Of a stretch of DNA of 34,708 bases, positions 6,458 through 34,708 are shown one piece after another. Each line of letters begins with the position of its first letter. Positions within the stretch are counted from its first letter, which is position 1. The notes under the pieces are model-generated. The model had not been told where the DNA came from. It ran no database searches and saw only the letters and a list, made by a program, of their open reading frames with translations. A program made the position numbers and the translations under genes. The stretch comes from a virus: positions 1 through 34,708 of IMG/VR virus record IMGVR_UViG_3300036045_000518. The stretch is one strand, 5' to 3'.

Positions 6458-6489
6458 GCGCGCGGCCCCTCGGGGTCAGCGCGCTTTTT
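6458..6489 (+). terminator. Intrinsic terminator
   Basis: GCGCGC (6458-6463) pairs with GCGCGC (6479-6484) around an inner CCCC/GGGG stem, and TTTTT follows at 6485-6489. It points rightward, upstream of the gene at 6514. The preceding gap (6282-6457) contains no gene that I can support. Confidence 0.75.
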
Positions 6490-8810: not shown

Positions 8811-10508
8811 ATGGCCGTTGCATACCGATCGTCGAGCACATACCAGTCGTTTGGGAACACGGGCCAGAGCATGGCTCCGCCCTCCGGCCTGGCAGACGGC
8901 GATATTCTCCTGTATATCATTTACAAGGAGAACACCAACGCCGTCAGCTGGCCAAGTGGCTTTACCCAGATCCTGAACGCAACCTCCGGAAGTAACGCCT
9001 GGACACTCTCCGTCGCCTGGAAACGCGCGGCATCCGAAAGCGGGAACTACGCCCCGTCTTGGACGGGATCGACGTACACGGACGGCATTCTGGCGGCCTA
9101 CTCTGGCTGTGTCACGAGTGGTAGTCCGATCGATGCGTCAGGGATTGCCGCGAACGGCAGCCAGAACGGCATCGTCGACTGCCCCTCGATCACGACGCTT
9201 TCGGCGAACGCGATGGTCGTCGCCGTTGCTGCCTGTTTCATGCCACTCGACACGGGAGTTGTGGCCCCGAGCGGCATGACCAAGCGCACGCAGCGCGAAA
9301 CGCTCGGACTAGCAGATGTGATCCAGGCGAGCGCCGGATCGAGCGGATCGAAACAGTGGACTTCGACCGGTCAGAACGACCAGACGATCGGTGCGACGAT
9401 CGCGCTAACCGAGGCCAGTAGCGGCACAACCCACGACGGCGCGGCGGCGCTGAGTGGCGCAGGCAGCCTTACCGCTGCCGGTACCGCACTCCGGCCCGCT
9501 GCGGCGGCGCTCTCTGGCGCAGGCAGCCTTACCGCTGCTGGCCAGACCGTTGCACAGGGCCAGGCCGCACTCACAGGCACAGGAAGCCTCTCGGGTGCTG
9601 GCCAATCGATTGCACAGGCGCAAGCCGCGCTCGCTGGCGCAGGCAGCCTCTCCGCAAGCGCGACGGTCATTCGCGCCGGCGCAGCGGCACTCAGTGCTGC
9701 AGGAAGCCTTGCTGGCGCTGGCCAGGCCATTCGGCCCGCTGCGGCTGCCCTCACGGGTGCCGGAAGCATCGCGGGTGCTGGCCAGGTCGTCGCAGCCGGT
9801 ACCGCCTCGCTCGGTGGCGCTGGGAGCCTTACAGCGGCTGGAGAGGCCGTTCGCACGGGCGCAGCGTCCCTCACGGGCGCTGGGAGCGTTGCAGGGGCCG
9901 GCCAGGCGGTTGCACAGGGTCAGGCAGCCCTCCAGGGCGCTGGAAGTCTCACCGCGAGCGGTGAAGTTGTTCGCACTGGCGCAGTCTCCCTCCAAGGTGT
10001 TGGAAGCCTTGCAGCGGCCGGAGCGGCCATTAGACAGGGCCAGGCAGCCCTCCAGGGCGCTGGGAGCCTGTCAGGCGCTGCGACTGTCACGGGCCTGGTC
10101 GACGGCGCTTCGGCGCTCGCTGGTGCAGGAAGCCTTTCGGCGAGTGCGACGGTTATTCGCGCCGCTTCTGCTGCCCTCACTGGCCAGGCTGACCTGGTCG
10201 CTGCGGGCACGCGGATTGCCGAGGGCGCAGCTGCCCTTGTCGGAAGCGGCGGTGTTGCAGCTACCGCAACAGGGATTCGCCATGGTGCTGCAGCACTCGC
10301 CGGTGCCGCCCAGTTCGCAGCAAGCGGCTCGCTCGTCGCTGCTGGCACGGCAGCCCTTGCCGGAAGTAGCGCGCTCACCGGAAGCGCCGAGGTTGCGGCA
10401 CTCACGAGCGATCCCGATCTGGTGGTTGTGGCTCGGCGCGCACTGACTCTCACACCCGAGCGCCCGTATTCGATTGCTGCCTCCCGCGCCTACACGGTCA
10501 CACGATGA
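8811..10508 (+). CDS. Long repeat-containing tail fibre protein, 565 aa
   Basis: Residues 1-205 form a beta-rich domain with the look of a virion jelly-roll or tail-surface domain (GLADGDILLYIIYKE, SGFTQILNATSG, ILAAYSGCVTSGSPID). Residues 211 to about 532 are about sixteen tandem units of roughly 20 residues with consensus AALxGAGSLxAxGxxIxxG. Only one unit is longer. Such Ala/Gly-rich repeats with regularly spaced hydrophobics suggest a beta-solenoid or a trimeric fibre shaft. The last 30 residues are a short capping segment. It overlaps the downstream adaptor gene by four bases (ATGA). It probably projects from the virion to bind the host or span a distance, and repeat number could vary by recombination. 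Confidence 0.8.
   Translation: MAVAYRSSSTYQSFGNTGQSMAPPSGLADGDILLYIIYKENTNAVSWPSGFTQILNATSGSNAWTLSVAWKRAASESGNYAPSWTGSTYTDGILAAYSGCVTSGSPIDASGIAANGSQNGIVDCPSITTLSANAMVVAVAACFMPLDTGVVAPSGMTKRTQRETLGLADVIQASAGSSGSKQWTSTGQNDQTIGATIALTEASSGTTHDGAAALSGAGSLTAAGTALRPAAAALSGAGSLTAAGQTVAQGQAALTGTGSLSGAGQSIAQAQAALAGAGSLSASATVIRAGAAALSAAGSLAGAGQAIRPAAAALTGAGSIAGAGQVVAAGTASLGGAGSLTAAGEAVRTGAASLTGAGSVAGAGQAVAQGQAALQGAGSLTASGEVVRTGAVSLQGVGSLAAAGAAIRQGQAALQGAGSLSGAATVTGLVDGASALAGAGSLSASATVIRAASAALTGQADLVAAGTRIAEGAAALVGSGGVAATATGIRHGAAALAGAAQFAASGSLVAAGTAALAGSSALTGSAEVAALTSDPDLVVVARRALTLTPERPYSIAASRAYTVTR
9441..10407 (+). repeat. 60-bp tandem repeat array inside the fibre gene
   Basis: About sixteen in-frame 60-bp units. 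Many share DNA strings such as GGCGCAGGCAGCCT and GCTGGCCAGGC at matching offsets, so similarity exists at the DNA level as well as in protein. Neighbouring units differ enough to suggest old duplications, with a few near-identical pairs at the start. Because the unit length is a multiple of three and lacks stops, several other frames are also open. Confidence 0.88.
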
Positions 10509-10768
10509 GCGAGCGGTTCCGTTTCTACAAACATCGCCGCGCCAAGCGCGTGTTCACCGTCAAGTGGGGTGCATCGCCGGCGCTCTCCAGCGCGACCTGG
10601 GCGAGTTCGCCCGACGGTCTCACGATCGCGGCCACGTCGATCAACGCCGGCGACGCACTGGCCCGACTTGAGGGCGGCACAGAGGGCACGCGCTATACCG
10701 TCGAGTGTGATGCGACCTTCGCCGATGGACAGACCGACGTGGAAACCTTCGACGTGGTGGTCACTTGA
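10505..10768 (+). CDS. Phage fibre-tail adaptor-like Ig-fold protein, 87 aa
   Basis: The short sequence has the layout of the small 'fibre-tail adaptor' group: an N-terminal basic strand (FYKHRRAKRVFTVKWG), LSSATWASSPDGLTIAATSI, then a paired strand ending RYTVECDATFADGQTDVETFDVVV. This is an immunoglobulin-like beta sandwich lacking cysteine bridges. It would bridge the fibre to the tail. It overlaps the fibre stop by four bases, and the terminase genes begin 38 bases further on. Confidence 0.7.
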   Translation: MSERFRFYKHRRAKRVFTVKWGASPALSSATWASSPDGLTIAATSINAGDALARLEGGTEGTRYTVECDATFADGQTDVETFDVVVT

Positions 10769-10806
10769 AAACTTGAATTCGCTCGCATTTTCTGTGAGTT
10801 CCCACG

Positions 10807-11217
10807 ATGGCCAACAGTCACGGCGGCGCGCGGCCCGGCGCTGGGCGCCCGCGTACCAGCGAGGTGTTCGAGAGCGAGATCGCGGCCGCTAAGAAGCGCA
10901 TCGCGGATCGTCTTCCCGAACTCATCGACGCCCAAGTGGACCTGGCGCTCGGCGTCACGGTTCACGAGGTGGACGAGGAAACGGGCGGCGTCCGGGTGTA
11001 CACGCGGCCGCCCTGCTGGCGGAGCGCGCAGTACCTCACGAACCGCATCATGGGCACGCCGACGCAGCATACCGAGATTACGGGCGCCGACGGCGCACCC
11101 CTGACGGAGTCCCTCAGTGACGACGAGCGCGCTGCGCGCATCCTGGCCATCCTTGAGCGCGCGCGACCGAGCGGAGCTGGACTACCTGCTGACGAGCAGT
11201 CCGGGAACACTCCGTGA
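10807..11217 (+). CDS. terS: Terminase small subunit-like protein, 136 aa
   Basis: The N-terminus carries the GGARPGAGRP signature seen in many small terminase subunits and related phage DNA-binding proteins. It is followed by a helical region (EIAAAKKRIADRLPELIDAQVDLALG) suited to oligomerisation, and an acidic C-terminus. It would recognise the packaging site and feed DNA to the large subunit directly downstream. The large-subunit start lies 101 bases inside this gene in another frame, an unusually long overlap. The start ATG 10807 has no good ribosome binding site. Confidence 0.72.
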   Translation: MANSHGGARPGAGRPRTSEVFESEIAAAKKRIADRLPELIDAQVDLALGVTVHEVDEETGGVRVYTRPPCWRSAQYLTNRIMGTPTQHTEITGADGAPLTESLSDDERAARILAILERARPSGAGLPADEQSGNTP

Positions 11218-12625
11218 CCACCCCGATCTCTATGCCGACCTAGTCCTCGGTGTGCGCTGGTGGCACAAACAGCAGGAGATCGCCCGCAGCCTTACCACTC
11301 CACCGTACCGCACGCTCGTCAAAGCGTGCCACAACGTCGGCAAAACCTACCTCGGCGGCGGGCTCGTCAACTGGTGGTTCGACACGCACCCGGAGAGCAT
11401 CGCGCTCACGACGGCACCGACCGATCGGCAGGTACGGGATCTCCTCTGGAAGGAAGTGCGGGTGCAGCGCGGCGGGCGTGGCGGCTTCGTCGGCCCGAAG
11501 ATCCCGAGGCTTGAGGCGGCACCGAATCACTTCGCGCACGGCTTTACCGCCGCCGATGGCGATAGTTTCCAGGGCCACCATGCCCGGCACCTGATGCTGC
11601 TGTTCGATGAGGCGGTGGGCGTCGATCCGGTGTTCTGGGAAACCGGCGAGTCCATGTTCACCGGCGAGGGCCACGCCTGGCTCGCGATCTTCAACCCGAC
11701 CGATACGAGCAGCCAGGCCTACCAGGAAGAGCTGCTCGGCGGCTGGCACGTCATCAGCCTCTCGGTACTCGAACACCCGAACATCGCCGCTGAGCTTGCC
11801 GGGCTGCCTCCGCCGTTCCCATCGGCGATCCGCCTGGCCCGCGTCGATACGCTCATCCGCAAATGGTGTCGTCCGCTCGACGCCGTGGCACCAAAGCTGG
11901 CCACCGATATTGAATGGCCACCGAAATCCGGCGCGTGGTTTCGCCCCGGCCCGATCGCCGAAGCGCGCCTGCTCGGGCGCTGGCCCTCACAGGCCACCAA
12001 CAACGTCTGGAGTGATGGTGCCTGGCAGGAAGCGGAACTCCGGCTTCTGCCCGAGCCTGACGAGCCGATCGAGATCGGCTGTGATGTCGCCCGCTTCGGG
12101 GACGACTTCACCGCGATCCACGTCCGGCGTGGCCCGGTCTCACTCCATCACGAGAGCGCAAACGGCTGGAGCACAACCGAAACCGCCGGGCGGCTGAAGC
12201 AGCTTGCACAGCACTGGGGGCCACTCACGAAGCAAGAGCCCACCCAGGTGCTGATCAAGGTCGATGACGACGGTGTGGGCGGCGGCGTGACCGACCAGGC
12301 AGGCGACTACCGCTTTGTCGGCTGCTCTGGCAACGCGAGAGCCTACGACAGCGAAGGCTACCCAAACCGGCGCAGCGAAGTCTGGTTCGCGGTCGCCGAG
12401 CGCGCGCTCGATGGCCGCCTCTCCCTCGCCCGGCTCGACGAGGCGACGCGGCGGGATCTGCGACGGCAGGCGATGGCACCGACGTGGAAATTAGACAGCG
12501 ACGGCCGGCGCGTGGTGGAGCCCAAGGACGCCACCAAGAAGCGCATCAAGCGCAGCCCGGACGATATGGACGCCCTGAATCTGGCCTACGCCCCCGCGAT
12601 GAGCGGCCTCCTGGATTTCGCATGA
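11117..12625 (+). CDS. terL: Terminase large subunit, 502 aa
   Basis: This is the DNA-packaging motor and nuclease. The Walker A-type P-loop is CHNVGKT (residues 71-77) with Walker B LMLLFDEA (159-166), whose Glu is the catalytic base. The C-terminal RNase H-like nuclease shows EIGCDVARFGDD near residue 320, an Asp cluster (VDDDGVGGG) near 383 and the late acidic motif SPDDMDALNLAYA near 480. The start is GTG 11117, supported by GGAG seven bases upstream. This overlaps the small subunit by 101 bases. A TTG further in would shorten the overlap but lacks a site. The stop overlaps the portal ATG by four bases. Confidence 0.93.
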   Translation: MTTSALRASWPSLSARDRAELDYLLTSSPGTLRDHPDLYADLVLGVRWWHKQQEIARSLTTPPYRTLVKACHNVGKTYLGGGLVNWWFDTHPESIALTTAPTDRQVRDLLWKEVRVQRGGRGGFVGPKIPRLEAAPNHFAHGFTAADGDSFQGHHARHLMLLFDEAVGVDPVFWETGESMFTGEGHAWLAIFNPTDTSSQAYQEELLGGWHVISLSVLEHPNIAAELAGLPPPFPSAIRLARVDTLIRKWCRPLDAVAPKLATDIEWPPKSGAWFRPGPIAEARLLGRWPSQATNNVWSDGAWQEAELRLLPEPDEPIEIGCDVARFGDDFTAIHVRRGPVSLHHESANGWSTTETAGRLKQLAQHWGPLTKQEPTQVLIKVDDDGVGGGVTDQAGDYRFVGCSGNARAYDSEGYPNRRSEVWFAVAERALDGRLSLARLDEATRRDLRRQAMAPTWKLDSDGRRVVEPKDATKKRIKRSPDDMDALNLAYAPAMSGLLDFA

Positions 12626-15585
12626 GCTTTCTCGACCGGGCGCTCGCCCGCCTCGGCTACATCAAAGCGCAGACAGCCCAGGCACCAGCCTGGGCGCGCG
12701 CCGGGCTGGCCGGCGAAGTCGAGCAGATCCCGGACGGCGAAGACGTGGCACGGCAGGGCGAGCTCTACAAGAAGCTTTCCTGGCTCCAGATCGCCATCAG
12801 TTTGTATGCCCAGTCAGCCGCCTCGACGCCGCTCAATGTGCTCCAGCTCGTCGGCGAAGAGACGAAGGCGATCACGAATCACCCGTTCGAGCAGCGGATG
12901 CGGGCACCAAACCCGATGCAGAGCCAGTTCGAGTTCCTGGAGGCGCATTTCGCCTTCCGGCGCCTGATGGGCAATAGCTACTGGTGGCTCAACCGCTCAG
13001 GCCCAGACGAGGAACCTGCCGAAATCTGGCTTATTCCGCCGCACCAGGTGCGGCCGGTGCCCGACGGGCGAATGTTTTTGCGCGGCTATCTCTACGACGC
13101 CGGCGACAGCACCAAGATCCCGCTTGAGCCGTGGGAGGTGATGCATTTCAAGCAGTGGCATCCGCTTTCCAAATATGTCGGCCTGAGCATCATTGAGGCG
13201 CTGGCGATCGGCGCGCACGGCGATCTCGCCGCCCAGAAATACGACGCCAATTTCTACGCGGCCGACAACGCCAAGATGCCGGGCGCGCTCGCGTTCGCCG
13301 ACCCGATCAACGACTCCGACTGGAGCCGGATGAAGCGGGAAGCGCGTGAGCAGCACGGCGGCACCAAGCGTGGTCTGATGATGCTGCGGAACGTCGGCAA
13401 GGGCGGCGTCGAGTGGGTCCAGATGGCGATGAGCCACGCGGACCAGCAGTATCTGGAAAAGCGCGAGTTCACCAAGAACGAAATCTTCGCGCTGGTTGCG
13501 CCGGGCCTGGCCTCCTCGATCGCCATCAACGCGAACGAAGCCTCGGGCCGCACCGGCGACGCGGTCTTCAATGCCCGCGCGCTGTACCCGGCACACATCG
13601 CTACCGCCGAGAAGATCACGGCCACAGTCCTGCCGGCCTACGGCCCGAACCTGGTAGCCCAGTTCGACGACGTGCGCCACAAGGACCGCCAACTGGAACT
13701 GGCCGAACAGGCAGCCGCCGAAAAGGTGATGACGCTGGACGAGTTGCGGAAGCAGTTCTGGAAGCTCGCCCCGATCGGCGATGCGCGCGGCGAGTTGCTC
13801 GTTGCCGAGATCGGCAAGGGCCAGACCGATACCCGATCGGTCGAAGAGAAAGAAGCTGCGGCCGCACCCGAAGACGAGGAGCTGCTCGACGAGGAACCGC
13901 CCGAAGAAGACCTCGACGCCGTGGACTGGGATACGGCCGTCGCCGGCGAAGCTCCCGATGAAGCACTCAAGGCGATGACGCGCTCCGAGGCAGCCCGTGT
14001 CGCCGCCCTGGCCCGCTGGGGCAAGTACAAGCCGCAAGGCCAGCAGAAGCCCGCAGGGCGAACCAGAAAGCCCAAGAAGCCCGCGCAGAGCAAAGAAGAG
14101 CGCGCGGCCGAGAAGGCGAAGACACAGGCCGACAACCGCGCGAAGGTGTTCGATCAGCTGCAGGTCGCTGGCGGTCGTGACGCGCTCGCTGCACTCATGA
14201 GCGGCGACGCCCCAGACGGCGCGGAAGCTGAGAAACTCCAGGCGATCGGCCTGGCCGAGCGAGCCGACGACGGCACGTTCCGTCTCTCAGCCGCCGGCCG
14301 CATGGTCTGGAACGCCGCCACGCGCGGTGACGCGGCGAGAGCCGGCGAAGTGATCAGCCGAGCGCGCGATGCTGCGAACCGCAGAAACGACAAGCAGAAG
14401 GCAAAAGAAGAGAAAACCGGCGGCGGGAAGGGCGCGAAACCCAAGCCCGATCCGGCGAAAGAGAAAGCTGAGAAAGCGGCTGCGACGGCGGAGCAGGTTG
14501 GGCTGAAGCCGCAGGAAGTCGCTGGACTGCGCTCGGCGGCCGAGGGCAAGGGTGCCGCCGAAGCCGACATCGACGGCCTGGCTGAAGACGGACTCATTGT
14601 CTACAACGCCAGTGAGGATCGCTTCGAAGCCACGGACCAGGGACGGCGAGCGCTCTCGGCACTCGAACGCGGCGACGTGCGCCAGTACGAAGCGGCCCTG
14701 CAGGACGGTCGCGCAGCCGCAGCACGCGAAACCGAACGAAGGAGGCGCGCTGCGGCCAAGGCCGACCTCGACAAGTACGAACGCAAGGCGCTCAAGCGGC
14801 TCGACGCCGGGAAATCCCCAGCCTGCCAATTCGAAAGCGATGTACTCGACGAGGACACCCTCGAAGAGCTTACACACGCCCTGAACCATTGTGCGAACGC
14901 TGACGACGTTCGGAGCGCCTTCAAACGCGCGCCGGGCGACGGGCTGACGCCAGAAGAGCAGGCACTGTTCGAGCGGCTTGTGAGCATGCTTGGTGCCAGC
15001 CAGGCCGAGATCGCACGCAACATCGTGCGCGGCGCTGCCAACGTTGACGGCATGCTCAAAACGCTCGGCGAGATGATCGCCGCTGCGCTCTCGCCGGCGT
15101 TGGCCTCGGTTGTCGAAGCGCGCATCGCCGAGCTGACGATGCAGATCGGGATGGCCTTCGACGTGGCCGACCTCGGTGCCGACGTGGCGGGCCGCTACGT
15201 TTCGAACTACCTCACCGGCATCGACGCGACGACCAAGCGCGCCGTCGAGCGGGCCGTCGATCTGTACCGTGCCCGGCCCGGCATGACCGTCGGCGACCTG
15301 ACCACGGTACTGGAGGGCGCATTCTCGCCGCGCCGTGCGGATCTGATCGCCGTGACCAGCATCACGGAGGCAGCCAGTCACGCGACCGAAGCCTACCAGG
15401 CGCAACTCAAAGCGGCCGGCATCGAGAGCGAGCGCGTCTGGCGCACGAACAACGACGAGCGTGTGTGTCCGATCTGCGGGCCGCTGAACGGGCAATCGGA
15501 AGAGCAGTGGCGCGATCGGTTCCCGCGCGGTGCGCCGGCGCACCTGCGGTGCCGCTGTATGACGACGCTGAAGGTGAAGGCGTGA
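12622..15585 (+). CDS. Portal-MuF head morphogenesis fusion, 987 aa
   Basis: Residues 1 to about 400 are an HK97-type portal (SWLQIAISLYAQSAASTPLNV, FGFRRLMGNSYWW-like helix, EIWLIPPHQVRPVPDG, EVMHFKQWHPLSKYVGLSIIEA). It forms the dodecameric ring at the head vertex. About 412-450 is a strongly acidic linker. About 452-505 is Lys/Ala-rich, and about 509-706 holds two copies of a small winged-helix-like unit separated by a charged linker. From about 731 comes a region common in portal C-termini. The last 75 residues are a MuF/SPP1-gp7 domain with CPICGPLNG and HLRCRC, a probable zinc site. The start ATG 12622 overlaps the terminase stop (ATGA). An ordinary portal is 400-500 aa, so this is a fusion plus insertion. 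Confidence 0.88.
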   Translation: MSFLDRALARLGYIKAQTAQAPAWARAGLAGEVEQIPDGEDVARQGELYKKLSWLQIAISLYAQSAASTPLNVLQLVGEETKAITNHPFEQRMRAPNPMQSQFEFLEAHFAFRRLMGNSYWWLNRSGPDEEPAEIWLIPPHQVRPVPDGRMFLRGYLYDAGDSTKIPLEPWEVMHFKQWHPLSKYVGLSIIEALAIGAHGDLAAQKYDANFYAADNAKMPGALAFADPINDSDWSRMKREAREQHGGTKRGLMMLRNVGKGGVEWVQMAMSHADQQYLEKREFTKNEIFALVAPGLASSIAINANEASGRTGDAVFNARALYPAHIATAEKITATVLPAYGPNLVAQFDDVRHKDRQLELAEQAAAEKVMTLDELRKQFWKLAPIGDARGELLVAEIGKGQTDTRSVEEKEAAAAPEDEELLDEEPPEEDLDAVDWDTAVAGEAPDEALKAMTRSEAARVAALARWGKYKPQGQQKPAGRTRKPKKPAQSKEERAAEKAKTQADNRAKVFDQLQVAGGRDALAALMSGDAPDGAEAEKLQAIGLAERADDGTFRLSAAGRMVWNAATRGDAARAGEVISRARDAANRRNDKQKAKEEKTGGGKGAKPKPDPAKEKAEKAAATAEQVGLKPQEVAGLRSAAEGKGAAEADIDGLAEDGLIVYNASEDRFEATDQGRRALSALERGDVRQYEAALQDGRAAAARETERRRRAAAKADLDKYERKALKRLDAGKSPACQFESDVLDEDTLEELTHALNHCANADDVRSAFKRAPGDGLTPEEQALFERLVSMLGASQAEIARNIVRGAANVDGMLKTLGEMIAAALSPALASVVEARIAELTMQIGMAFDVADLGADVAGRYVSNYLTGIDATTKRAVERAVDLYRARPGMTVGDLTTVLEGAFSPRRADLIAVTSITEAASHATEAYQAQLKAAGIESERVWRTNNDERVCPICGPLNGQSEEQWRDRFPRGAPAHLRCRCMTTLKVKA

Positions 15586-30344: not shown

Positions 30345-31187
30345 TCACCGTCCTGCTCGCATTGTTTCAGCCTCTTTCTGTGCGTTCGCCTCGGCCTCGG
30401 CCTGACCACAGCCGCCCGCCACGACATAGCCGAGCTTCAGGCCCGCGCTGTTGTGGACATCGCGCGTGACTTCCACCCACGCGCAGGACGGTGCTGATGC
30501 GGGCGCAGCCGGCACTGCGGGCCGAGCTGCTGGCGCTGCGGGTGGTGCCGGTGGCGGCGTGGCCAGATCTGGTAGTGCTGGATCGACCGTCGCCCCAAGA
30601 TCCTCAGCATAGGCCCAGACGCGCCCGCCGCCATCAAGCTCAACCAGGAGCCAGTGCTGGCCAATGCGCCCAACGGGCGTGTACGGCGTGTCACGCTCGA
30701 TAGCCGTCGCCGTCGCCGGATTGCCGTAGTCAAAATACGCCACGAGTGCGCGCGGGGCCGTGTTCGGCGGCATCGCGGTCAGCGTCGGCCCGCTCGTGGC
30801 GGCTGGCGTGGCCTCAGCTCGGGCGGGCGCAGTCGGTGCTGCGGGCACCACAGGAGCAGCCACGGGGCGTGTTGCGCTCCACAGCCCTACCAGGAGCAGC
30901 CCAAGTACCACGAGCGCCGCCACAACCCCGTAGGCAGGGCGTGGCGGTGCCTTCTCCTCCTGCGCCGCCTCAGCACCCGGTAGCAGGGCTGAGAGTGGCC
31001 GCTGCGCCGTGGGATCGACAACCGCCTTGGGCGACACTACGGGTTCGGCCGCGATGCGCTCCACATCGGGATCGGGCGGCTCGGCCATCAAGTCCAGTGT
31101 TGCCAGTACGTCCTGCTCTGGATCGACGATGATTGCGCCGGCCTGTGGATGGCCGTTCGGGTAGCGCAGCGGAGTCCATGTCGTCAT
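30345..31187 (-). CDS. Single-pass membrane protein with SH3b-like domain, 280 aa
   Basis: ATG 31187 overlaps the upstream stop by four bases. About 80 polar N-terminal residues include DPEQDVLATLDLMAEPPDPDVERI. They precede one membrane helix (about 86-105, YGVVAALVVLGLLLVGLWSA). Outside lies an Ala/Pro/Thr linker, then a small beta domain resembling bacterial SH3 (about 148-200: ALVAYFDYGNPATATA, VGRIGQHWLLVELDGGGRVWAYAEDLG). A second Pro-rich linker follows, and last a Cys-containing strand pair (PSCAWVEVTRDVHNSAGLKLGYVVAGGCG). SH3b domains often bind cell wall. A type II envelope protein is likely; function unknown. Confidence 0.75.
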   Translation of the reverse strand: MTTWTPLRYPNGHPQAGAIIVDPEQDVLATLDLMAEPPDPDVERIAAEPVVSPKAVVDPTAQRPLSALLPGAEAAQEEKAPPRPAYGVVAALVVLGLLLVGLWSATRPVAAPVVPAAPTAPARAEATPAATSGPTLTAMPPNTAPRALVAYFDYGNPATATAIERDTPYTPVGRIGQHWLLVELDGGGRVWAYAEDLGATVDPALPDLATPPPAPPAAPAARPAVPAAPASAPSCAWVEVTRDVHNSAGLKLGYVVAGGCGQAEAEANAQKEAETMRAGR

Positions 31188-32425
31188 AGTCGCACCACCT
31201 GTGTGTCACGGAAGCGATAGCGGCCAAGGCGCGTTTCGTCAAGTAGTTCGGCGCGTTTCCAGTCGGCGATCGTTTCCCGCGCCGTGCTCTCGGCCGTTCG
31301 TAGCACGTCCGCGAGTTGGCGCGCCGTCCATACATTCACGGTTCCTAAGCGCTCGCGGGCCGCATCGTACTCTGCTGGCCGCGGCGGAACCTCGGGATCA
31401 CGTGACTGGGTGCTGTGGCGTGACGCAGCCACGTGCTGCGTACTCCCGTGCTCACGTGGCATTGACGATTGCAATCGTGAATCCACGTGCGCGCGGTCGC
31501 CCTCGATGAACGTCTCACGTGTCGCCGCACGTGAATCCACGATACTGGTGGGATCGAACGGGGTTGAAACCATCGCCAACTCGGGCACGTGCGCCGCCAC
31601 GTGATCCGGTGCGTCCTCGGGCATAGTCACATCCAACACGCGCCGTTCAAGCTGTTTCGCCAGGTCGTTGAAGCGGTTCACGAGTTGATCATCGTCCATC
31701 GTGGGCATGGCGAGTTCGGCCCCGGCGATCGTGCGGAACGTTCCGGCAATCGCCTCAAGTGTGTCGTTCTGGCTGCGCTGCATTGCGGCCAAGATGCCGG
31801 CCACTTCCTGCCGCTCCAGCGCGGTCATGTTGGCAATGCCGACGCGCAATAGGTCAACGGCGCGAAAGTACGCCACCTTCGCAGCCGCAATATCGGCCTG
31901 GTGCGCCAACTCCAGTTTCTTCACCAGATGCGCCTGCTGCACCTCCGCCGCCCAGGCCATCGGCGACGACCACGAGAAGGACAGCGCCGGCACCACGACG
32001 GCGAAGATCAGCGTGGTAATCGTTTGCATCGTCGCAAACTCGGGGTTCGTAAGGCTGGCAGCCCAAAAGGCCGAGACAACGGTGTAGGCGTACCAACCGA
32101 GGAAGCCAGCCGCACCGAGCAGCACCACAAAGCCCCACGTAGTGCGGCGGTAGCGCTGGAGGAGCATGCCGGCGGGACTCGACGGGGCGATCATCGCCAG
32201 GAGCGCTGGCAACACCAGAGCGCAGCAGAGCGCCAGCACGATGGCGACGGCCACACGCAAGAGCGCGATAAGCCACCCGAATGGCGATACTGGCGCGTCG
32301 ATGGTAATGAGTGAGATCTGAGCAAACGCCCAGAGGACGATGCTGAGAAAGAGACCAGCGTCTGAGGCGGAACGCAGGAAGCCGCCTTCGCGGCCCTTCT
32401 GCATGGTGTCGTGGGGTTGATTCAT
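31184..32425 (-). CDS. Polytopic membrane protein with C-terminal winged helix, 413 aa
   Basis: Residues 23-42, about 50-80, 96-121 and 134-152 are hydrophobic, giving about four membrane helices. About 160-265 is helical and coiled-coil-like (AAKVAYFRAVDLLRVGIANMT, LVNRFNDLAKQLERRVL). About 270-350 is a disordered His/Ser/Arg-rich linker, whose DNA carries eight CACGTG palindromes. The last 62 residues form a winged helix-turn-helix (TARQLADVLRTAESTARETIADWKRAELL, then wing GRYRFRD). It is probably a membrane-tethered DNA-binding protein. The start is ATG 32425; an in-frame upstream ATG (32464) would run through a dyad and is less likely. The stop overlaps the next gene (ATGA). Confidence 0.78.
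   Translation of the reverse strand: MNQPHDTMQKGREGGFLRSASDAGLFLSIVLWAFAQISLITIDAPVSPFGWLIALLRVAVAIVLALCCALVLPALLAMIAPSSPAGMLLQRYRRTTWGFVVLLGAAGFLGWYAYTVVSAFWAASLTNPEFATMQTITTLIFAVVVPALSFSWSSPMAWAAEVQQAHLVKKLELAHQADIAAAKVAYFRAVDLLRVGIANMTALERQEVAGILAAMQRSQNDTLEAIAGTFRTIAGAELAMPTMDDDQLVNRFNDLAKQLERRVLDVTMPEDAPDHVAAHVPELAMVSTPFDPTSIVDSRAATRETFIEGDRAHVDSRLQSSMPREHGSTQHVAASRHSTQSRDPEVPPRPAEYDAARERLGTVNVWTARQLADVLRTAESTARETIADWKRAELLDETRLGRYRFRDTQVVRL
31399..31603. repeat. Array of eight CACGTG palindromes
   Basis: Exact CACGTG occurs at 31399, 31430, 31453, 31484, 31516, 31528, 31586 and 31598 (first bases). Flanking bases are not conserved. Start-to-start distances are 31, 23, 31, 32, 12, 58 and 12. 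Four copies read as His-Val codons and four as xCA-CGT-Gxx, so the motif is kept across two reading frames of the host gene. A 12-mer CGTGAATCCACG also occurs twice (31476-31487, 31530-31541). By eye I found only two other CACGTG sites in the window. Confidence 0.85.
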
Positions 32426-32551: not shown

Positions 32552-32854
32552 TTACTCCTGTACTCCTCGATCGGTCGGAACGTCGAACTGTGGATCCCAT
32601 CCCATTTCGAGATACTGCCCCGCTTCGGGCTCGATTGCCACGATTGCACGCTGGAGTTGATCGCCAAGTTCACGCATCAGCTTCTGATGTGTTGGCGTGA
32701 GCATTGGGTTGCGGCTCGCGAACTGGATCACGCTCAGGATAATCCAGGCTTCGCGCGGCCGCATACTCCAGCGAATTGGCTTCTTAATTACCCAGAGACG
32801 CCGCATCAGCGCCTCCAGTTCGGGCGGCATGTCGGGTACGAGGTTACTGCTCAC
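32552..32854 (-). CDS. Hypothetical protein, 100 aa
   Basis: Not recognised. It starts at GTG 32854 with a purine-rich GAAGGGAAAGG upstream on the minus strand. The product is helical: DMPPELEALMRRLWVIKKP, REAWIILSVIQFASRN, THQKLMRELGDQLQRAIVAIEPEAGQYLEMGWDP. There is no membrane or cysteine motif. It is a middle gene of the leftward cluster, separated by two hairpins from the membrane-protein genes downstream. The length and helical pattern suggest a small soluble phage protein. Confidence 0.65.
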   Translation of the reverse strand: MSSNLVPDMPPELEALMRRLWVIKKPIRWSMRPREAWIILSVIQFASRNPMLTPTHQKLMRELGDQLQRAIVAIEPEAGQYLEMGWDPQFDVPTDRGVQE

Positions 32855-33076: not shown

Positions 33077-33603
33077 CCGTGTCCCCCTATCCCCCACGCA
33101 GCTCGCCGATCGCGCCTGGCCAGTTGCGCCGCAGCGACACTCCGCAGCACGTAGCCCTCCGAGTCAACCGCGTCCGCCCAGCGCTCGTCGGCATTCGGCA
33201 GCCACTGGACATGGACGCGCTCGCCCTCGATCCGGTCGATGAGGTACTCGGCTTCGCTCTCAGCGACCTGGAAGCGCAGGAAGCGCCCCACAGCCAGGCC
33301 CGTGCCGGCGTCACGGTCGAGCTGCCGAACATCGTCAGCGAGCGCTTCCCAGGCATCGAGGTCGTCCGCCACCTGCCCGCCAGCGATGAGCGTCGCCTGC
33401 TGCACCAGGATAGCGATGCGCGCCGTCATGGCGATGGTGGCCGAGCCGGCGACGGTTGGCCGCGTGGCGTCCTCGATTTGCCGCGCGCCATCCTCGAAAG
33501 CGCCGAGGTAGCGCCGGGCGGCGATCGTCGCCGGCGTTTGCGGCCCGGTGTGATCCCGAAGCAATTCCGCAATAATCCGTTCTGCGTTCCATGGAGTGGT
33601 CAT
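33073..33603 (-). CDS. Hypothetical protein, 176 aa
   Basis: Not recognised. ATG 33603 overlaps the upstream stop (ATGA). The first 115 residues are helical (AERIIAELLRD, TIAARRYLGAFEDGARQIEDA, TIAMTARIAILVQQATLIAGG, DDLDAWEALADDVRQLDRDAG). The remainder has a beta hairpin (RFLRFQVAESEAEYLIDRIEGERVHVQWLPNADERWADAV) and a last helix. No metal or nucleotide motif is visible. It belongs to a five-gene overlapping set (32870-34392), so is co-translated with small neighbours of unknown role. Confidence 0.7.
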   Translation of the reverse strand: MTTPWNAERIIAELLRDHTGPQTPATIAARRYLGAFEDGARQIEDATRPTVAGSATIAMTARIAILVQQATLIAGGQVADDLDAWEALADDVRQLDRDAGTGLAVGRFLRFQVAESEAEYLIDRIEGERVHVQWLPNADERWADAVDSEGYVLRSVAAAQLARRDRRAAWGIGGHG

Positions 33604-34064
33604 GCGCTGGTTGCTCCTTGCGCCTCACGCGCCGCTCGAGTCGCGCGAATCCGCACGATGATGTCCCCGATTGTTGGCAGTGGGAAATCCAATTCCCGCA
33701 GCTCGGCGGTGACTGCCGCTTCACTCTCGGCGTCCGCTGCGGCCGCCAGAATCTGGAGCGCGTAGCCACGCGCCGCGGTCGGCGAGACCTGCATCGTCTG
33801 CTCGCCGATGCTGAGTTGCACGATGCCCGCGCCCGTCGCGGCCGATACGAGGGTCTCAACGGCCAGCTCGACCATGCCGCGCCGATCGTGCTTGGGCTGC
33901 GTACGCCGCGCCATGTCCTCCATGTGACCCGCCGCGAGCTGCATCAAGCGGTACTCCGGGTTGTCTTTGCTCACGCCCCGGAGCGCGCTCACGATGCCCT
34001 TGAGCGTACCTGTGCCGTCTTCTGCGATGCCCGCCGCCGGTGGTACTCGTCTTCCCTTGCTCAT
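33600..34064 (-). CDS. Hypothetical protein, 154 aa
   Basis: Not recognised. ATG 34064 overlaps the upstream zinc-finger gene's stop (ATGA), and GAGGAAGGGG lies just before it. A basic Gly/Lys N-terminus (MSKGRRVPPAAG) precedes helices (TLKGIVSALRGVSKDNPEYRLMQLAAGHMEDMARR) and a central beta segment (IVQLSIGEQTMQVSP). Two more helices follow (RGYALQILAAAADAESEAAVTAELREL and IGDIIVRIRATRAAREAQ). An in-frame start further upstream (34205) would overlap the neighbour extensively and has no ribosome site. A role in DNA or protein binding is possible but unsupported. Confidence 0.68.
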   Translation of the reverse strand: MSKGRRVPPAAGIAEDGTGTLKGIVSALRGVSKDNPEYRLMQLAAGHMEDMARRTQPKHDRRGMVELAVETLVSAATGAGIVQLSIGEQTMQVSPTAARGYALQILAAAADAESEAAVTAELRELDFPLPTIGDIIVRIRATRAAREAQGATSA

Positions 34065-34270
34065 CCCCTTCCTCGCTTCCGCGTGATGGCCGTTGGCCGT
34101 CGCCCAATACACACTCCGTCGATCGTCACCACCAGGTGCCGCCAGAGCCCGCAGCACGGGCACACGATCGGGCTGCCTGGTGCGCCGTAGCGTGTCAGCG
34201 TCCAATCGCCGCAGCGTGGGCAGCGCGGACCAGGCCGCCCGGTGGGGCTCATGCGCGCAACGAGGATCAT
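34061..34270 (-). CDS. Small zinc-finger protein, 69 aa
   Basis: ATG 34270 overlaps the preceding tiny membrane gene (ATGA), and its own stop overlaps the next start (ATGA). Two CxxC pairs, CPRCGDW and CPCCGLW, are separated by 17 residues, forming a classic four-cysteine zinc ribbon. The C-terminus is strongly basic (GRRPTAITRKRGRG), suited to nucleic-acid contact. A DNA- or RNA-binding adaptor is likely. No target is known. Confidence 0.75.
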   Translation of the reverse strand: MILVARMSPTGRPGPRCPRCGDWTLTRYGAPGSPIVCPCCGLWRHLVVTIDGVCIGRRPTAITRKRGRG

Positions 34271-34392
34271 GGCTTCCTCCGCTCTCGCTCGCAGCGCTCG
34301 GCGCGCTGATAGTGATAGACGCCCCAGAGCGTGACCAGGAGCGTCACGATGGCCAGCAGGGCGAAGGCGGCGACCACAATCCAGTCAGCCAT
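34267..34392 (-). CDS. Tiny single-pass membrane protein, 41 aa
   Basis: The ATG is at 34392-34390 and the TGA at 34269-34267, overlapping the next ATG. Residues 4-25 form one hydrophobic helix (WIVVAAFALLAIVTLLVTLWGV). A strongly basic cytoplasmic tail follows (QRAERCERERRKP). Its start lies eight bases inside the upstream repeat-bearing gene. Tight overlaps on both sides support reality despite the size. It may be a small membrane adaptor. No family is assignable. Confidence 0.65.
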   Translation of the reverse strand: MADWIVVAAFALLAIVTLLVTLWGVYHYQRAERCERERRKP

Positions 34393-34708
34393 TGCCAGCC
34401 TCCGCTTCTAGCGCTCGCTTGAGCGCCGCAGCGGCGGCCAGCAGCGCCGGCACCCGCCGCATCGAGAGCGTGATCAACTGGACACCGTAGCCATCCGTGA
34501 TCACGAGGCTGCCATCACGGCCGCCATGCACCGAAAGCGTGATCGTCTCTTCGTGCTCAGTCGCACTCACGCGCAGCGGCCCCGCTTCTAGCGCTCGCTT
34601 GAGCGCCGCAGCGGCGGCCAGCAGCGCCGGCACCCGCCGCATCGAGAGCGTGATCAACTGGACACCGTAGCCATCCGTGATCACGAGGCTGCCATCACGG
34701 CCGCCATG
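34385..34708 (-). CDS. Repeat-containing protein, 5'-partial, 107 residues visible
   Basis: The frame is open to the window edge, so the N-terminus is missing. An internal GTG at 34684 is not a credible start because the repeat continues through it. The visible part is a 60-residue unit seen almost twice: a strand pair HGGRDGSLVITDGYGVQLITLSM, then a helix RRVPALLAAAAALKRALEA, then GPLRVSATEHEETITLSV leading into the next unit. The alternation of beta hairpin and Ala-rich helix suggests a repeated small domain. Copy number is unknown because the assembly stops in the repeat. It lies upstream of all other leftward-cluster genes seen here. Confidence 0.65.
   Translation of the reverse strand, partial: HGGRDGSLVITDGYGVQLITLSMRRVPALLAAAAALKRALEAGPLRVSATEHEETITLSVHGGRDGSLVITDGYGVQLITLSMRRVPALLAAAAALKRALEAEAGNG
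34402..34708. repeat. 180-bp tandem repeat truncated by the contig end (127-base exact match)
   Basis: Bases 34402-34528 are identical to 34582-34708. The match stops on the left by mismatch (T versus C) and on the right only because the sequence ends, giving exactly 127 bases. The period is 180 bp, or 60 codons, in frame with the leftward gene. An exact 127-base terminal match is what an assembler with k = 127 leaves when it exits a repeat loop. Confidence 0.9.

Follow-up and report, generated by a model that had tools for sequence, protein, structure and literature searches.

The window analysed here, the whole 34,708 bp of the virus record IMGVR_UViG_3300036045_000518, carries genes for terminase, portal and tail proteins, the tape measure protein among them; it also encodes an integrase and a recombinase of the Erf type. 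The terminase shares 77% identity with a copy from an uncultured Kouleothrix and 72-73% with Herpetosiphon copies, and a member of the Chloroflexales is therefore the likely host. Within a minus-strand gene of 413 codons lies a 205-bp array of CACGTG palindromes; this gene, its domains, the elements of the array and the two neighbouring genes are listed in Table 1. The array is also present in the contig IMGVR_UViG_3300036046_000149, which is not independent evidence because it is 99.99% identical to the window.

Table 1. Coordinates of the array, its subelements and the surrounding genes in the window.
Feature	Position	Strand	Description
CACGTG array	31399..31603	.	Eight exact palindromes, at 31399, 31430, 31453, 31484, 31516, 31528, 31586 and 31598
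CACGTG-N6-CACGTG pair	31516..31533	.	Imperfect inverted copy of the 31586-31603 pair, arms 89% complementary
CACGTG-N6-CACGTG pair	31586..31603	.	
Conserved 39-bp DNA block	31451..31489	-	CACGTGGATTCACGATTGCAATCGTCAATGCCACGTGAG; 33/39 identical in the G102 homologue
413-aa protein gene	31184..32425	-	N-terminal hydrophobic helices (membrane domain), helical region, linker, C-terminal winged helix
C-terminal winged-helix domain	31187..31378	-	About residues 356-413; kept in six homologues on other elements
Downstream partner gene	30345..31187	-	280 aa, one hydrophobic segment
Gene directly upstream of the 413-aa gene	32552..32854	-	100 aa

All eight exact CACGTG copies reported in the initial annotation were recovered at their positions, with centre-to-centre steps of 31, 23, 31, 32, 12, 58 and 12 bp. 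As had also been described, four of them are read in frame as CAC-GTG (His-Val) and four as xCA-CGT-Gxx, and the sequence around the sites is unconserved. Additionally, CACGTG relics with one mismatch are scarce nearby, no long repeat unit is common to the sites, and GTG-N6-CAC is present within both 12-bp pairs. The annotation had counted two 12-bp steps, which holds, and two 31/32-bp steps, of which there are three; its proposal that many sites occupy a similar helical face is limited by the 58-bp step, which corresponds to 5.5 helical turns and breaks single-face phasing. At a rate of 15.3 sites per genome, about 0.09 CACGTG are expected in 205 bp and the probability of eight or more is around 1e-13, and across 200 genomes simulated with a third-order Markov model the most strongly clustered palindromic hexamer reached no more than seven copies in 205 bp. 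Outside the array the window contains only two sites (18974 and 19087), against 11.5 expected under a third-order, 14.7 under a second-order and 7.6 under a maximal-order model, in agreement with the earlier statement that the motif, expected well below once in 205 bp, is clustered here and scarce elsewhere. Codon-preserving randomisation, which had been suggested as a check, gave mostly two to four sites (mode 3, maximum 7) and never eight in 100,000 synonymous-codon permutations of the gene. The two reading frames together with these shuffles point to selection on DNA.

Structure prediction gave low confidence for about residues 262-348 and a small helix-plus-hairpin domain at the C-terminus, and, together with the homologues described below, it supports the disordered linker and the C-terminal winged helix proposed earlier. 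The array covers codons 274-342, so that all eight sites fall inside this linker. As the full-length AlphaFold model was poor (pLDDT 54), it served for the disorder pattern only. The predicted winged helix is probably DNA-binding; its profile match to HTH_Crp_2 was below the cut-off and Foldseek searches with its model returned only weak DtxR/IdeR matches. The 413-aa protein had no initiator family match in PHROG, Pfam or NCBIfam, and a PDB sequence search returned nothing relevant. We consider this stretch a clear case of dual coding: the peptide of a disordered linker is set by DNA sites that occur in two frames.

Sequence comparisons place the protein in an unnamed Chloroflexales membrane-protein family, in which the versions on mobile elements carry an additional C-terminal winged helix after a disordered linker. 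Homologues of the membrane/helical core were found in 68 of the 82 Chloroflexales genomes, mostly in one copy and mostly with about 27-39% identity, and these chromosomal proteins align over the core and have no winged helix. A wider sample of 400 Chloroflexota genomes yielded 39 with a match to the family, every one of which was also in the order sample. Winged-helix versions were found on six other elements, namely the genomes G038-G040, which are mutual near copies, and the virus records G102, G104 and G107. Exact peptide seeds retrieved only the 99.99% identical contig from the viral contigs and no close homologue from the genome contigs, and tblastn of phage and plasmid collections found no homologues. 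CACGTG triplets in the Chloroflexales genomes included none like the window array, several of them being tandem repeats (e.g. in G060, G096 and G101). Apparent arrays of TCGCGA adjoining the G104 gene and of TCGCACA adjoining the G107 gene were rejected, both being coiled-coil heptad codons.

The homologue of virus G102 (L534) is 31% identical to the 413-aa protein, and its linker contains three of the six CACGTG of the 36,479-bp G102 record, all within 217 bp (P about 5e-5 to 1e-6). Apart from the conserved 39-bp block of Table 1, the two linkers can hardly be aligned; for this block, codon-shuffled linkers reached at most 26 matches against the 33 seen in G102. The block consists of two CACGYG 31 bp apart around a central palindrome; in the window two CACGTG flank the 14-bp palindrome ACGATTGCAATCGT, and in G102 the palindrome is ACGATTGCAGTCGT. 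At nine of the ten identical residues of the block the same codon is used, as compared to 40% elsewhere in this protein pair, and the shared codons include several rare ones, used 6.5-9% of the time in the window virus. These identical rare codons indicate that the DNA has been conserved beyond what the peptide alone would explain. In addition, CACGTG is depleted outside the cluster in both carriers (2 against 11.5 expected in the window and 3 against 11.1 in G102), with no significant depletion in the other related sequences compared. The element GATTCACGATTGCARTCGTC gave two hits with two mismatches in the 82 Chloroflexales genomes, which is the chance level. The conserved block and the linker cluster of G102 thus support selection on DNA rather than protein, as first suggested, and the recommended alignment of homologues had a divided outcome, since sites and block are partly kept in G102 and no CACGTG was found in the genes of the winged-helix homologues L536, L540, L187 and L188 (L186 is a near copy of the last two). 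The family as a whole therefore does not share the array, which is either recent or variable in motif. Both array carriers, the window virus and G102, are known only as uncultivated virus records.

The gene neighbourhoods of several relatives contain partition functions, and in this regard the centromere-like role raised in the initial annotation has gained support from context. In G102 a parA gene (AAA_31, 3.8e-46) and a DUF3102 gene precede the membrane-winged-helix gene, a DUF3102 gene also lies near that of G107, and the membrane homologue of L541 has an actin-like gene nearby. Furthermore, ParA plus ParB and an actin-like protein are found in G002 and G003, which are relatives by terminase, and between parA and parB of G002 there is a weak relative of the 100-aa upstream gene (36.5% over 52 aa, E 0.001). 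Look-alikes of the downstream partner gene stand directly 3' of the membrane-winged-helix gene in G102, G104, G107 and G038, that of G107 being recognised by sequence match (49% over 59 aa) and the others by position and layout. One trait of partition loci, a repeated site in or beside the locus, has a counterpart as far as the presence of repeats goes, namely the array inside the gene and, in G102, three sites plus the block. The predicted winged helix of the array protein is a candidate for the DNA-binding adaptor of such a locus. Neither parA nor parM nor parB was detected in the window; this record is linear, and its right end falls upstream of the array operon. CACGTG is the core of the chromosomal parS 16-mer. 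This 16-mer, TGTTTCACGTGAAACA, was rejected as an identity for the sites, because it had no match with up to three mismatches; the array sites match it at 7-10 of 16 positions and lack its outer bases. Two side observations concern the terminase relatives: eight CACAGC copies within about 200 bp follow parA in G002 (L023:6640-6830) and are possibly its centromere, and iteron-like GTGTCAC repeats lie in G003 (L025:10780-11060) between genes that, read from sequence only, are primase-like (9633-10769) and helicase-like (11055-12650).

All these data make it very probable that the array is a real cis-acting DNA element, and selection on it at the DNA level is supported by the sequence comparisons. 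Our preferred reading, which we hold with somewhat less than even confidence, is that it is a centromere-like attachment or partition site bound by the membrane-tethered winged helix of its own gene. The array would then be a protein-binding site written into linker codons; the winged helix of the same gene's product would bind the CACGTG-containing sites, and its transmembrane domain would tie the viral DNA to the membrane, which could help to hold, position or partition an extrachromosomal genome. Binding by the winged helix could also repress the operon. The array itself, the selection on DNA, the partial conservation, the domain layout and the partition genes near relatives support this proposal. 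Against it count that no parA, parM or parB was found in the window, the absence of the array from the other winged-helix versions, the missing parS outer bases, the weak fold matches and the arrays elsewhere that mark replication initiators. More loosely, we suggest that a single gene may combine a membrane-embedded winged-helix protein with the site to which this protein binds, a centromere or origin held in its linker codons, the core having come from a Chloroflexales membrane protein and the winged helix having been gained. Because such a site overlaps the linker codons of its binder, protein and site would travel as one unit.

Several known systems resemble parts of this arrangement. In the prophage CGP3, the alpS repeats are bound by AlpA, which connects the phage DNA with filaments of AlpC, and the DNA is found mostly at the membrane (PMC4446434). 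A phage DNA-binding adaptor, a repeat array and the bringing of DNA to the membrane are what the proposed system would share with it; in contrast, alpS precedes its operon and the DNA is moved by filaments, whereas the window protein would itself be membrane-embedded. Chromosomal ParB-parS has the CACGTG core in common with the array but differs in the outer bases and in its ParB, for which no counterpart was found in the window. The phi29 protein p16.7 is a membrane-anchored phage DNA-binding protein that acts in a replication context. Compared by description, it resembles the window protein in combining a membrane anchor with a DNA-binding domain (predicted in the window), and it is not known to rely on an array of one specific palindrome within its own gene. 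In phage lambda, ori lies within gene O, an iteron array in the coding sequence of a DNA-binding protein (PMC6022878). As in O, the window array is inside the gene of a (predicted) DNA-binding protein with two domains and a flexible linker; O, however, is not a membrane protein and is unrelated, and lambda has 18-bp iterons and an adjacent 39-bp AT-rich region where the window has bare hexamers.

This lambda precedent bears on the strongest rival, which the initial annotation had not listed, namely a replication origin nested in an initiator gene, with a (possibly membrane-anchored) winged-helix initiator and the eight sites as iterons. It takes this rank because CACGTG arrays often lie in initiator genes: when viral contigs were scanned for three nearby CACGTG and the array-bearing ORFs were annotated by PHROG, at least 19 of 90 matched replication initiation families. 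For 91 further ORFs from these contigs, no such family was among those listed (Fisher p about 6e-7), both counts being drawn from the 25 commonest families. Of 22 array ORFs that form a related cluster, 16 were non-redundant at 70%. In L279, L309 and L247 the sites lie in a mid-protein stretch in two frames, as HV and SRD/SRE, like those of the window gene, and no other replication initiator or helicase loader was detected among the window proteins scanned. We nevertheless regard an origin as less likely than an attachment site. The array gene, a membrane protein of a chromosomal family, has no initiator family match, and no strong A+T-rich block adjoins the array (GC 0.57-0.70 in 100-bp windows, lowest 0.57). 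The initiators of viral contigs (L279, L289, L309; PHROG 2447) share with the window gene CACGTG, HV/SRD coding (in two frames in L279 and L309) and a mid-protein position, but they have an initiator N-terminal domain, steps of 11-12 or 21-24 bp, no membrane domain noted, and mostly TCACGTGA flanks where those of the window array are free. Moreover, arrays of the control hexamer GTGCAC, mostly tail-fibre repeats, included at least 7 initiators in 60, which does not differ significantly from at least 19 in 90, so the association is with palindrome arrays and not with CACGTG specifically.

A second alternative, which we consider doubtful, is an operator array through which the operon or the gene at 31187 would be controlled, either by the winged helix acting as a one-component regulator in the membrane or by some other factor of phage or host. 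The array begins about 210 bp before the downstream gene, which fits this reading, as do the weak Crp-type likeness of the winged helix and the GTG-N6-CAC pairs, but eight sites over 205 bp in a gene exceed a usual operator, and no other promoter in the window has clustered CACGTG. Restriction targets are often depleted in genomes, and CACGTG is palindromic and scarce elsewhere in this one; still, clustering related to methylation or restriction, or a decoy for a host protein, is very improbable, since restriction avoidance would not create an eight-site cluster and no convincing methyltransferase adjoins the array (33600-34205 has a weak phrog_2060 match, E 0.0012). Chance or repetition at the protein level seems hardly credible: the peptide does contain several HV and SR/TR/PR pairs and synonymous shuffles already give about three sites, but the use of two frames, the lack of a long shared repeat unit, the codon identity with G102 and the failure of any shuffle to reach eight speak against it.

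The array connects a dual-coding linker with a protein family of Chloroflexales mobile elements that is membrane-anchored, probably binds DNA and has partition genes among its neighbours. Should the protein bind the array, phages may use one self-contained gene to anchor their DNA straight to the membrane. In addition, CACGTG arrays occur often within replication-initiator genes and can serve as a simple signature by which to recognise origins in the sequences of uncultivated phages. Such arrays (mostly TCACGTGA), with steps of 11-12 and 22-23 bp, lie in the middle part of the replication initiator-like phage genes L289:3198-4151, L279:8422-9654, L309:7963-8979 and L296:10123-11013, and are likely origins recognisable from sequence alone. 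A different setting was seen in L300:6133-6341, where a stretch of 209 bp immediately ahead of terminase genes (small subunit at 6470) contains ten CACGTG, several as GTCCACGTGG, and may be a packaging or regulatory site. Lastly, the window contains two further repeats. A 60-bp coding tandem repeat at 9516-10069, rich in alanine, glycine and serine, lies in the structural gene 8811-10508. At the contig end (34398-34708), a near-identical direct repeat of about 130 bp, with copies about 180 bp apart, sits in a 99-aa ORF (34385-34684) as two copies of one peptide, and this end may therefore reflect either a break in the assembly or a genuine tandem repeat.
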